Of a stretch of 64,000 bases of DNA, positions 31,080-56,580 are shown one piece after another. The position numbers were made by a program, and so were the translations under genes. The notes below the pieces were generated by a model. That model saw nothing but the letters and a program-made list of their open reading frames with translations, was not told the origin of the DNA and did not search any database. Position 1 is the stretch's first letter, and each line of letters opens with the position of its first letter. The stretch is from positions 2,627,001 through 2,691,000 of the forward strand of contig NC_008209.1 of NCBI RefSeq assembly GCF_000014045.1. Direction: 5' to 3'. The stretch is from Roseobacter denitrificans OCh 114 (lineage in GTDB: Bacteria > Pseudomonadota > Alphaproteobacteria > Rhodobacterales > Rhodobacteraceae).

Positions 31080-31165
31080 TGGTACCCAAGGCCGGACTCG
31101 AACCGGCACAACCGTAAGGTCGGGGGATTTTGAATCCCCTGCGTCTACCATTCCGCCACTTGGGC
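31080..31165 (-). tRNA. tRNA-Leu (anticodon CAA)
   Basis: An 86-base tRNA including an encoded CCA. On the minus strand it starts GCCCAAGTGGCGGAATGG. The anticodon arm GGGGA-TTCAAAA-TCCCC gives anticodon CAA. The long variable arm is of class II type, followed by a T-loop with GGTTCGAGTCC and an acceptor strand CTTGGGT, then discriminator A and CCA. The first acceptor pair is G-U. It reads UUG codons. It stands alone between the TetR-family gene and exoD. Confidence 0.95.
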
Positions 31166-53767: not shown

Positions 53768-53796
53768 TTGACGCCCCCCATTCCCCCCCATAATGT
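53768..53796 (+). promoter_or_regulatory. Predicted promoter of ilvB leader
   Basis: TTGACG at 53768-53773 and TAATGT at 53791-53796 with a 17-base spacer (or CATAAT at 15). It would start transcripts near 53803, just before the leader ribosome binding site GAAGGAG (53809-53815). Confidence 0.6.
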
Positions 53797-53823
53797 CCCG
53801 CCCAACACGAAGGAGCCTCGGCC

Positions 53824-53871
53824 ATGACCGAACTAGTCGTCATTGTGAGAAACACGCGCATGGGCCGGTAA
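53824..53871 (+). CDS. ilvB leader peptide (attenuation peptide)
   Basis: A 15-codon reading frame MTELVVIVRNTRMGR with stop TAA. Codons 4-8 (Leu-Val-Val-Ile-Val) are the end products of the pathway encoded downstream. A good ribosome binding site GAAGGAG lies eight bases before the ATG. The frame is too short for normal gene finders. The last codons overlap the 5' arm of a hairpin (53856-53864) that competes with the terminator at 53897. This is the classic layout of ribosome-mediated attenuation of branched-chain amino acid operons. Confidence 0.82.
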   Translation: MTELVVIVRNTRMGR

Positions 53872-53898
53872 CGGTAGACCATAGTCTGACCCATGCGC
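53856..53898 (+). promoter_or_regulatory. Antiterminator hairpin of ilvB leader
   Basis: GCGCATGGG (53856-53864) pairs perfectly over nine bases with CCCATGCGC (53890-53898). Its 3' arm uses the first two bases of the terminator stem, so both cannot form fully. A small inner hairpin, AGAC-CATA-GTCT (53876-53887), stacks inside. A ribosome ending at the TAA would cover the 5' arm and favour the terminator; one stalled on the Val/Ile codons would leave most of it free. Confidence 0.7.
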
Positions 53899-53923
53899 CC
53901 CCGCCAAGACCGGGGGCTTTTTT
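53897..53923 (+). terminator. Attenuator (rho-independent terminator) before ilvB
   Basis: The stem GCCCCCG / CGGGGGC (53897-53903, 53911-53917) with a 7-base loop is followed by six T. It lies between the leader peptide stop and the ilvB start at 53972, so unless bypassed it would stop transcription before the operon. Confidence 0.88.
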
Positions 53924-53971
53924 GTGCGCAAAAGATAACGGGCCCATCGGGGTCAACACGGAGAGAAAACT

Positions 53972-55723
53972 ATGACACGTCAAATGTCCGGCGCGAAAAT
54001 GATTGTTCAGGCCCTGATTGATCAGGGCGTGGATACCGTCTTTGGATATCCCGGCGGGGCTGTGCTGCCGATTTATGACGAGGTCTTTCAACAAAATGCG
54101 ATCCGCCACATTCTGGTGCGCCACGAACAGGGTGCGGTACACGCCGCCGAAGGCTATGCGCGCGCCACGGGCAAGCCAGGCGTTGTTCTGGTGACATCTG
54201 GTCCGGGGGCAACCAATGCCGTGACCGGCCTGACGGATGCGCTGATGGATTCCATTCCGCTGGTGGTTCTGACCGGACAGGTGCCGACTTTCATGATCGG
54301 CTCTGACGCGTTTCAGGAGGCCGATACCGTGGGCATCACCCGCCCCTGCACCAAGCACAACTGGCTGGTCAAGGAAACCGAACGGCTCTCCGGCGTCATC
54401 CACGAAGCGTTTCACGTCGCAACCAGCGGGCGCCCCGGCCCCGTGCTGGTCGACATTCCCAAGGATGTGCAATTTGCCACCGGCACCTATACGCCGCCCA
54501 AACCTTCCACCTCGCATTACCAGCCCAAGCTGAAGGGTGACATGGAGGCGATCACCGAACTGGTGGCCGCGCTCGAAAAGGCAAAGAAGCCGATTTTCTA
54601 CACCGGCGGTGGTGTGATCAATTCCGGCCCGGCCGCCAGCCAGTTGCTGCGTGAACTGGTGCAGGCCACAGGCTTTCCGATCACCTCCACGCTAATGGGG
54701 CTTGGTGCCTATCCGGCCTCGGGGGAAAACTGGATCGGCATGTTGGGCATGCATGGCCTTTATGAAGCCAATATGGCGATGCATGATTGCGACCTGATGA
54801 TCAACATCGGCGCGCGCTTTGATGACCGGATCACCGGGCGGCTCGATGCCTTCAGCCCGAAATCCATCAAGGCGCATATTGATATCGACCCCTCGTCGAT
54901 CAACAAGGTCATCAAGACCGACATCCCCGTTGTCGGGGACATCGCCCATGTGCTTGAGGATGTCCTCAAGGTCTGGAAATCCCGCGGGCGTAAAACGAAT
55001 TCGGAGGCGGTCGCCAAATGGTGGGCGCAGATCGAGCAATGGAAAACGGTGGATTGTCTGCGCTTTACGCAAGAGGGCAAGGTCATCAAACCGCAACACG
55101 CTCTGGCCCGCCTCGAAGCGCTGACCAAGAAATACGACCGCTACATCTGCACCGAAGTCGGGCAGCACCAGATGTGGGCCGCGCAATATCTGGGCTTTGA
55201 GGATCCGAACCGCTGGATGACCTCCGGTGGTCTGGGCACGATGGGCTATGGCTTCCCGGCCTCGATCGGCGTTCAGATCGCCCATCCGGATGCGCTGGTG
55301 ATCAACGTGGCGGGCGAAGCGTCGTGGCTGATGAACATGCAGGAGATGGGCACCGCCGTGCAATACCGCCTGCCCGTCAAACAGTTCATCCTCAACAACG
55401 AACGCCTCGGTATGGTGCGCCAGTGGCAGGAACTGCTGCACGGGGAGCGCTATTCACACAGCTGGTCCGACGCCCTGCCCGATTTCGTAAAACTCGCCGA
55501 AGCCTTCGGAGCCAAAGGCATCCTGTGTTCCGACCCCGATGATCTGGACGATGCGATCATGGAGATGCTGACCCATGACGGCCCTGTCATCTTTGACTGT
55601 CTGGTGACAAAGCACGAAAACTGCTTCCCCATGATCCCGTCGGGCAAAGCGCATAACGAGATGCTGCTCGGCGAAGCGGATACACAGGGCGTGATCGACG
55701 CCAAGGGGAGTGTGTTGGTGTGA
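53972..55723 (+). CDS. ilvB: Acetolactate synthase large (catalytic) subunit
   Basis: A 583-residue ThDP enzyme that makes acetolactate or acetohydroxybutyrate for valine, leucine and isoleucine. The catalytic Glu is in LVRHEQGAVHAAEGYARATG near residue 48, the ThDP/Mg motif is in VINVAGEASWLMNMQEMGT near 440 (GEAS in place of the common GDGS), and FGYPGGAVLPIYDE marks the N-terminus. It is preceded by an attenuator and followed by an unusual small gene whose GTG overlaps its TGA stop, then ilvN. Confidence 0.96.
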   Translation: MTRQMSGAKMIVQALIDQGVDTVFGYPGGAVLPIYDEVFQQNAIRHILVRHEQGAVHAAEGYARATGKPGVVLVTSGPGATNAVTGLTDALMDSIPLVVLTGQVPTFMIGSDAFQEADTVGITRPCTKHNWLVKETERLSGVIHEAFHVATSGRPGPVLVDIPKDVQFATGTYTPPKPSTSHYQPKLKGDMEAITELVAALEKAKKPIFYTGGGVINSGPAASQLLRELVQATGFPITSTLMGLGAYPASGENWIGMLGMHGLYEANMAMHDCDLMINIGARFDDRITGRLDAFSPKSIKAHIDIDPSSINKVIKTDIPVVGDIAHVLEDVLKVWKSRGRKTNSEAVAKWWAQIEQWKTVDCLRFTQEGKVIKPQHALARLEALTKKYDRYICTEVGQHQMWAAQYLGFEDPNRWMTSGGLGTMGYGFPASIGVQIAHPDALVINVAGEASWLMNMQEMGTAVQYRLPVKQFILNNERLGMVRQWQELLHGERYSHSWSDALPDFVKLAEAFGAKGILCSDPDDLDDAIMEMLTHDGPVIFDCLVTKHENCFPMIPSGKAHNEMLLGEADTQGVIDAKGSVLV

Positions 55724-56001
55724 ATTCAGATAAACGTCACTCGCTGGGCCACACTATGCTAATGCCAAAGTGGTGGCAGCTATTCGTGATGGTATTCTTT
55801 TCGTTGTGCAGCTTGCTTTGGGTTGCTCCAGTAATTCTGTTTTTTACGCATGATATAGGGCTACCTAGCGCACTGGCATTGTTTGCCGCAGTAGTCGGCT
55901 TTCAGTATATAGCTAGGGCAGTGGTCAATTGGATTGAAGTCACTGCAACCCGGCGAAGAGTTAGCGAGTTGATGAACGAAAACAATGATGATGATGTCTA
56001 A
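55720..56001 (+). CDS. Small membrane protein of atypical composition between ilvB and ilvN
   Basis: A 93-residue protein starting at GTG 55720 (GTGA overlap with ilvB) or ATG 55756. Two hydrophobic helices (WWQLFVMVFFSLCSLLWVAP and LPSALALFAAVVGFQYIARA) are followed by a charged tail ending MNENNDDDV. By hand count the gene is about 46% GC (129 of 282), well below its neighbours, with many codons rare elsewhere in the window (ATA, CTA, TTG, AGG). It is unrelated to acetolactate synthase and looks acquired. No IS ends or target duplications were found. Confidence 0.65.
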   Translation: MNSDKRHSLGHTMLMPKWWQLFVMVFFSLCSLLWVAPVILFFTHDIGLPSALALFAAVVGFQYIARAVVNWIEVTATRRRVSELMNENNDDDV

Positions 56002-56019: not shown

Positions 56020-56580
56020 ATGTCCCCCCTAAAAATCAAAAAAGGCTCCAACAGCCATTCCGCCTATAACCTGCGCCCCACATTCTCGGATGTGGTCGAA
56101 CGGCACACGCTGGCCGTTCTGGTGGAAAACGAACCGGGTGTGCTGGCGCGCGTCATCGGGCTTTTCTCTGGCCGTGGCTACAACATCGACAGCCTGACGG
56201 TCGCGGAAGTGGATCACACCGGGCACCTCAGCCGCATCACCATCGTGACCTCCGGCACGCCACAGGTGATCGAGCAGATCAAGGCGCAGCTTGGACGCAT
56301 TGTCTCGGTGCACGACGTGCATGATCTGACGGTCGAGGGGAAAAGCGTGGAACGCGAGTTGGCCATGTTCAAAGTCGTAGGCCAGGGCGACAAACGGGTC
56401 GAGGCCTTACGTCTTGCCGATATCTTCCGCGCCAATGTGGTCGACAGCACCCTCGAAAGTTTCGTGTTTGAAATCACCGGTGCGCCCGAGAAAATTGATG
56501 CATTTGCTGATCTGATGCGCCCGCTGGGCTTGGCAGAGGTCGCGCGCACCGGGGTCGCGGCCTTGTCCCGCGGGGAATAG
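56020..56580 (+). CDS. ilvN: Acetolactate synthase small (regulatory) subunit
   Basis: A 186-residue regulatory subunit that confers valine feedback inhibition. The ACT domain is clear (HTLAVLVENEPGVLARVIGL, FSGRGYNIDSLTVAEVDHTG) and the C-terminal domain contains VVGQGDKRVEALRLADIF and FVFEITGAPEKIDAF. The start is ATG 56020. It is separated from ilvB by the 93-residue gene instead of directly abutting it. Confidence 0.95.
   Translation: MSPLKIKKGSNSHSAYNLRPTFSDVVERHTLAVLVENEPGVLARVIGLFSGRGYNIDSLTVAEVDHTGHLSRITIVTSGTPQVIEQIKAQLGRIVSVHDVHDLTVEGKSVERELAMFKVVGQGDKRVEALRLADIFRANVVDSTLESFVFEITGAPEKIDAFADLMRPLGLAEVARTGVAALSRGE

Follow-up and report, generated by a model that had tools for sequence, protein, structure and literature searches.

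In the enterobacterial ilvB, ilvGMEDA and leu attenuators a stalled ribosome decides between an antiterminator and a terminator, and the locus considered here would resemble them in that logic. A leader preceding ilvBN has been described in Caulobacter (PMC4117421, citing Tarleton 1994); by its description in the excerpted text of that paper, with which our locus is likened here, it combines tandem branched-chain codons, a terminator before ilvBN and a ribosome-stall logic. An excerpt of a further paper (PMC1273637, citing Vitreschak 2004) refers to an ilvB leader peptide of Alphaproteobacteria as described earlier. Also similar is the Rhodobacterales cysS attenuator uORFC-8-2, in which, according to the excerpted account, a leader with tandem cognate codons, two stems and a terminator follow one another in the same order as here; it differs in having Cys codons and serving another gene, and like the ilvB case it was predicted from sequence (PMC8632094). 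The excerpt of that paper mentions an ilvB motif for Leptospira only (PMC8632094).

The locus lies in a 64,000-nucleotide stretch of the Roseobacter denitrificans OCh 114 chromosome (NC_008209.1, positions 2,627,001 to 2,691,000), which we call the window and to which positions refer. Judging from its sequence and from comparison with relatives, we put at about 90% the probability that the region upstream of ilvB is a ribosome-mediated transcription attenuator of the ilvB operon.

The ilvB leader, its predicted promoter and its codons

The features of the locus, all in the window, are the following.

53768-53794, plus strand: predicted promoter, TTGACG (53768-53773), a 15-base spacer and CATAAT (53789-53794)
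53810-53815, plus strand: Shine-Dalgarno AAGGAG of the leader, read from the sequence; purine-rich in relatives (by eye)
53824-53871, plus strand: leader ORF of 15 codons, MTELVVIVRNTRMGR, ATG at 53824 and stop TAA at 53869-53871
53833-53847, plus strand: predicted regulatory codons 4-8, CTA GTC GTC ATT GTG (Leu Val Val Ile Val)
53856-53864, plus strand: 5′ arm of helix P1, GCGCATGGG, within codons 11-14; nine perfect pairs with 53890-53898
53865-53874, plus strand: hairpin P2, CCG-GTAA-CGG, with the UAA stop codon in its loop (minimum-energy fold and register test)
53875-53888, plus strand: hairpin P3, TAGAC-CATA-GTCTG (minimum-energy fold), which differs between lineages
53890-53898, plus strand: 3′ arm of P1, CCCATGCGC, its final two bases common to the terminator
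53897-53923, plus strand: intrinsic terminator, 7-bp stem 53897-53903/53911-53917 and T6 at 53918-53923
53972-55723, plus strand: ilvB, acetolactate synthase large subunit (NCBIfam NF006581, 1140.8 bits)
56020-56580, plus strand: acetolactate synthase small subunit, ilvN/ilvH (NCBIfam NF008864, 225.2 bits)

The initial annotation had proposed a branched-chain attenuator with an unannotated leader before ilvB. Its 15-codon frame with a ribosome binding site, its Leu/Val/Val/Ile/Val run, the overlap of the leader's 3′ end with an antiterminator arm and the T-tailed terminator all lie where it placed them, and the codon run, both helices and a promoter-like site are conserved in relatives. Its promoter stood in part: the site is conserved, with a spacer to CATAAT of 15 bases rather than the 17 it had given. 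With a scoring that favoured TTGAC, the best-scoring site within 75 bases upstream of the leader had the -35-like TTGAC in 104 of 104 relatives, a spacer of 15 in 87 and CATAAT, the commonest -10 among them, in 52. A generic promoter scan in which spacers of 16-18 were allowed did not list the TTGACG-N15-CATAAT site.

The genes downstream of the leader encode acetolactate synthase subunits, i.e., they serve synthesis of the very amino acids that the leader would sense. When both strands of the window were scanned for a Shine-Dalgarno plus a short ORF there were 11 matches (the ilvB leader being counted twice), and the ilvB leader was alone among them in having five consecutive Leu/Val/Ile codons. 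Between the two synthase genes, a 93-residue ORF (55720-56001) overlaps the end of ilvB and sits upstream of the small-subunit gene; of 110 loci, tblastn found it at 2, namely in the window itself and in L104 (39%), and an NCBIfam search gave no match.

For comparison we collected ilvB loci of relatives in two sets, the best 30 loci from 59 genomes searched (the window's own included) and the best 80 of at least 590 named relatives; since best loci were chosen, the sample is skewed towards close relatives. Merging duplicates among the 110 upstream regions (L003-L112) left 107 distinct ones, and a leader was present in 104 of these, counting the window and bearing in mind that most are close relatives. 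Its length was exactly 15 codons in 99 of the 104. It was absent from L074 and L092, and in L096, truncated by the contig end, the 3′ half of the element was still visible. L074 (Nereida sp. MMG025) has no leader and no terminator, and carries a TTGACG promoter-like site ~70 bases upstream of ilvB, an apparent loss of the attenuator. We also scanned 18 further ilvB upstream regions, 5 from the family and 13 from other families. Among the family regions G030 had the usual form, G019, G022 and G026 had different short ORFs containing Ile/Leu/Val upstream of ilvB, and G032 was ambiguous; outside the family only G038 had a comparable leader (MTTQLVLIRQPLSGRD), and with 1 of 13 such regions the exact form is therefore not class-wide.

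In the 99 leaders of 15 codons, codons 4-8 encoded Leu, Val or Ile in 482 of 495 slots, as against 10% or less for the remaining codons. Within the run, CTA made up 74 of 111 Leu codons (67%, compared with 2.1% within ilvB genes) and GTA 123 of 272 Val codons (45%, compared with 5.0%). CUA codons sensitise the Salmonella leu attenuator according to an excerpt of PMC1183508, and on that account they are common to the ilvB leader and the enterobacterial leu attenuator. Such conservation of the leader makes a chance origin untenable. Codon 11 encoded nine amino acids in these leaders, yet ended in G in 98 of 99, where ilvB codon use predicts 50.6 (sd 3.65). The partner of this G is the final base in the 3′ arm of P1 and belongs to the two that P1 shares with the terminator; we therefore read the RNA, not the peptide, as selected at this position. 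The peptide end RMGR as a selected feature is disfavoured because codon 11 varies freely save its G; in addition, the L063 leader stops before RMGR and most exporter leaders (see below) alter it. The L063 leader, which lies at -139 from ilvB, is cut short by a TAG in codon 11, just upstream of the P1 arm; both P1 and the terminator are retained, so that the RNA arm has outlasted the peptide end.

Helices of the leader RNA, Rfam family Atu_C8 and model R1

The segment 53858-53926 folds at -33.7 kcal/mol, more stably than expected by chance (z -3.81 versus shuffles), and in the minimum-energy fold the P1 helix encloses P2 and P3; P1-P2-P3 probably form a three-way junction. The P1 5′ arm falls in the last leader codons, where a ribosome at the stop codon would cover it, and P1 and the terminator overlap by exactly two bases (53897-53898). 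The layout thus departs from that of the enterobacterial hairpins in having one junction, a 5′ arm in the last leader codons and a stem base that overlaps the terminator by two nucleotides.

Alignment A1 held 103 rows, i.e., the 104 leaders minus one duplicate, with two references added by hand. P1 was paired in 98.8% of 927 cells, compared with 10 to 67% in slid controls. Its arms were almost invariant; a G-C to A-U replacement at one pair, in three rows, accounted for nearly all the change, and this single pair changed on both sides was equalled in 59 of 500 shuffles, covariation in P1 thus being thin. The terminator was paired in 98.1% of 721 cells, and four of its pairs had compensatory changes, a number reached in 1 of 500 shuffles; the pairs at the shared bases were retained in at least 97 of the 103 rows, in P1 and in the terminator alike. 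Just after the T-tract (window 53924 onward), 50 of 104 relatives had TGCG no more than 8 bases away, a sequence considered as a possible third arm.

An RNAalifold consensus contained P1 and the terminator only, with P2 and P3 absent. Tested by register, the exact P2 stem was present in 89 of 104 leaders and in 0 to 5 when slid; if any stem of at least three pairs enclosing the stop codon is accepted, 99 of 104 leaders have one, whereas shuffles averaged 36.7 and peaked at 51. A stop-codon stem is kept in 13 of the 18 rows departing from CCG/CGG (shuffled mean 7.4; 3 of 500 as high), and the far relative G188 has CAGATG-TGAGAAA-CATCTG at the P2 position (by eye). Sequence and comparison together establish the leader, the codon run, P1, P2 and the terminator, with their order and overlap.

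At gathering thresholds Rfam gave no riboswitch or other family at the leader, and the sole match in the window was a tRNA gene on the minus strand (31083-31165). A riboswitch or other Rfam family was set aside as an explanation, the matches being weak and confined to a lax search, with the best by E-value, sR9, taken as chance. RF02502 (Atu_C8, "Rhizobiales sRNA") aligned end to end with the window element at 19.2 bits and with the exporter copy described below at 20.1 bits, both below its gathering score of 50; since the unrelated sR9 scored slightly above it in the lax search, this score alone proves nothing, and by the Rfam rule the ilvB leader of the window is not an Atu_C8 member. The Atu_C8 consensus is like the window element in having the same P1 arms and two inner hairpins, and its ORF reads as MIILVVGPRMGRAV. 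In the one Rhizobiales record concerned, Atu_C8 matched directly upstream of ilvB on pSymB of S. meliloti Ak57 (121.1 bits, L221 1018-1138; CDS 1183-2961), and the leader under the match is MKNFAVILVVGRRMGRMV, ending in VILVVGRRMGRMV. The common arms and the ilvB context suggest that Atu_C8 is the Rhizobiales ilvB attenuator and not a stand-alone sRNA. Searching open-licence literature for Atu_C8 by name found no paper.

A covariance model built from A1, and hence from ilvB leaders alone (R1), matched 19 of 19 genomes of the genus at E 1e-3 and 128 of 149 family genomes at E 1e-4. At E 1e-3 it matched 336 of 394 family genomes (a sample overlapping the 149, with gene context read for few), leaving 58 without a match, and the matches covered 335 of the 393 genera sampled in the family. 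The matches in G019, G022 and G026 preceded an exporter rather than ilvB. Eleven loci with weak, second or odd matches comprised seven before ilvB and four before the exporter; two of the seven were in G066, which has two ilvB copies (L144 and L145) with an attenuator before each.

Probable attenuation of ilvB and its alternatives

From these features we infer the start site, translation of the leader, stalling and a block to termination by P1. Transcription would begin near 53801, and the 15-residue leader would be translated at once. As long as charged Leu-, Val- and Ile-tRNA are plentiful, the ribosome would get to the UAA, cover the P1 5′ arm and melt P2; with P1 thus prevented, the 7-bp terminator would end transcription. 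With branched-chain tRNA scarce, the ribosome would stall at codons 4-8 and the P1-P2-P3 junction would fold once the P1 3′ arm emerged. The folded P1 would then hold the two basal bases that the terminator needs beside its U-tract, and the polymerase, facing a terminator deprived of them, would read through into ilvB.

The most serious alternative concerns this last step, and holds that the attenuator is real but that P1 hinders the terminator sterically or kinetically in the exit channel rather than by base sharing. In the minimum-energy fold the full terminator coexists with P1 shortened to 7 bp, and forcing the nine-pair P1 costs 1.2 kcal/mol, so in the folding model the competition is nearly neutral at equilibrium. 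Given such a balance it must act kinetically or inside the polymerase, and P1 folds first in the order of synthesis, making a kinetic effect plausible. Two diverged ilvB leaders point the same way: L152 has the helix in other letters (GCGCAGTCGC/GCGACTGCGC, z -2.1) and L153 has GCGCGGG/CCCGCGC (z -3.5), and by reading both keep the helix just upstream of the terminator with no base in common with it; the two-base overlap is a property of the clade aligned here. (A MAFFT alignment, A2, misplaced the L152 and L153 arms; it is therefore excluded from the counts, and folds with shuffles were used instead.) The codon-11 G, however, would be unneeded without the overlap, and it is kept in 98 of 99 leaders as the partner of a common base, as are the shared pairs on both sides in at least 97 of 103 rows; we consider this alternative unlikely, while ranking it above the others.

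Rather improbable, in our judgement, is a second proposal, that the leader RNA once terminated, or else its peptide, has a further role in trans, as rnTrpL and peTrpL have in Sinorhizobium, where an excerpted report has the trp leader peptide working in trans (PMC7298713). Trans action would explain the near-invariant P1 letters in the 103 rows, and the probable Rhizobiales counterpart stands in Rfam as the sRNA family Atu_C8. The invariance can, however, come from coding together with the need for two simultaneous changes, and L063 loses the peptide end, which speaks against a trans-acting peptide. A constitutive terminator beside a chance or non-regulatory short ORF is scarcely credible and was ruled out by conservation: the generic scan's failure to list the promoter is in its favour, and the conserved codon run, codon bias, wobble G and helices, with matches in 335 of 393 family genera, contradict it.

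We thus retain ribosome-mediated attenuation of ilvB as the most probable reading; the observation of the initial annotation is correct, and ordinary in kind. The annotation's nine-base antiterminator competing for two bases was right as to the overlap, which is exact and conserved in the clade, and is qualified by the 1.2 kcal/mol that the full helix costs. Its "compact two-hairpin form" understates the element, which also has the stop-codon hairpin P2 and P3 inside the helix, nor is this a new Roseobacter form, the kind having already been described in Alphaproteobacteria (the Caulobacter ilvBN leader and the ilvB leader peptide). It had suggested aligning relatives; doing so recovered the codon run, the helices and compensation at four terminator pairs, with thin compensation in P1.

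Copies upstream of Bcr/CflA-type exporter genes

A DNA search of the R. denitrificans genome found a second copy of the element (74% over 104 bases, E 2e-11) on a 106-kb plasmid-like contig, C2 (L002 1491-1605, G000:C2:79204-79318), with the leader MTVKFVVVVSKRRMVR. R1 scores it at 81.9 bits, the PLSDB gene table, which is incomplete, has nothing annotated over it, and it lies directly upstream of a Bcr/CflA-type MFS gene (TIGR00710, 215.3 bits). Six of the 19 genomes of the genus had a second R1 match, in all six before a Bcr/CflA-type MFS gene. Altogether we read exporter-linked copies in 11 family genomes (our own, G000, and ten more); these and the loci found outside the family are as follows.

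Exporter-linked copies, family genomes: G000, G128, G022, G026, G019, G012, G013, G008, G015, G002, G343
Exporter-linked copies, loci outside the family: L223, L224, L226, L228, L229-L235

The out-of-family loci came from class-wide searches. R1 matched 7 of 190 genomes of the class, and the four of these outside the family were all exporter-linked. A second model, R2, made from 15 exporter-linked elements, matched 16 of 385 genomes, five from the family and 11 from ten other families, and all 11 out-of-family matches lay directly upstream of the same MFS gene (50-64% identity); R2 had been built in part from four of these, and the remaining seven, which had played no part in it, all fit as well. 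Within the family, 9 of 394 genomes had two R1 matches, and in the five that were examined (those other than G287, G311, G354 and G383) the second match preceded the exporter in G000, G128 and G343 and a second ilvB in G066. In G168 the second match (R2; L236, G168:C6:280299) preceded neither ilvB nor an MFS gene and had no clear start codon, and L236 is either a remnant or a false positive.

Starting from the exporter instead, we read the DNA upstream of 30 MFS relatives, and 5 had the element. On named plasmids it preceded the MFS gene in R. denitrificans, Phaeobacter piscinae (one of two records) and Leisingera caerulea, the plasmids with the element in these three species being typed as conjugative, and it was absent upstream of the MFS gene on the Agrobacterium plasmid read. 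On a tree of 39 MFS proteins, at least four changes are needed to account for the 12 element-bearing rows, ten of which fall in one clade of 11, so that loss, repeated gain or transfer may each be involved. Near the exporter and attenuator of L. caerulea (L215 981-1535) there are a chloramphenicol phosphotransferase-family gene and two GNAT acetyltransferase genes. Listing ORFs (with no family search) in five exporter neighbourhoods revealed no common pattern.

The exporter-linked copies have a leader, helix and terminator directly before the exporter gene, an arrangement from which we infer attenuation of the exporter. In 23 exporter leaders (L212, whose leader is that of L211, being left out), 93 of the 119 Leu/Val/Ile codons after the start were Val; a run of at least three Leu/Val/Ile codons was present in 17 and not in 6, and 20 of the 23 end in Arg. 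P1 covariation in this set was not above shuffles (309/500), and two members, L148 and L157, fold weakly (z -1.7 and -1.4). Such a leader would fit the sensing of either Val-tRNA charging or a general slowing of ribosomes. For ribosome-slowing sensing the excerpted account of bmrBCD in Bacillus subtilis offers a precedent, in that a translated leader, a terminator and an antiterminator stand before a multidrug transporter that ribosome-targeting drugs induce (PMC4191407). The likeness is that of leader, terminator and antiterminator before an exporter; bmrBCD differs, by the same account, in encoding an ABC transporter, in its 53-residue leader and in belonging to another phylum (PMC4191407). 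The exporter copy, for its part, precedes an MFS gene, its leader is rich in Val, its RNA is a relative of the ilvB attenuator, and it is known from sequence.

What appears to be new here is that an ilvB-type element also precedes a Bcr/CflA-type exporter gene; among the papers that searches of open-licence literature listed, we found no description of an exporter-linked attenuator. Tentatively, and at slightly less than even odds, we propose that one leader-RNA family serves both ilvB and the Bcr/CflA-type exporter across Alphaproteobacteria, that the exporter copy, with its Val-rich and mostly Arg-ending leader, relies on the same stall and read-through so that efflux is turned on once drugs or poor Val-tRNA charging slow the ribosomes, and that conjugative plasmids carry this copy between marine roseobacters.

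Taken alone, the ilvB leader belongs, on good support, to a known kind, and Rfam does not match it at its thresholds; what is added to an ordinary attenuator is the hairpin around the stop codon, the connection with Atu_C8 and, most of all, the copies before exporter genes. If these copies are functional, the switches for amino-acid synthesis and for drug export descend from a single RNA. If that is true, the change from a starvation sensor to a ribosome-stress sensor would become directly testable, with the mixed Leu/Val/Ile leaders on the one side and the Val-rich leaders on the other forming a natural experiment.
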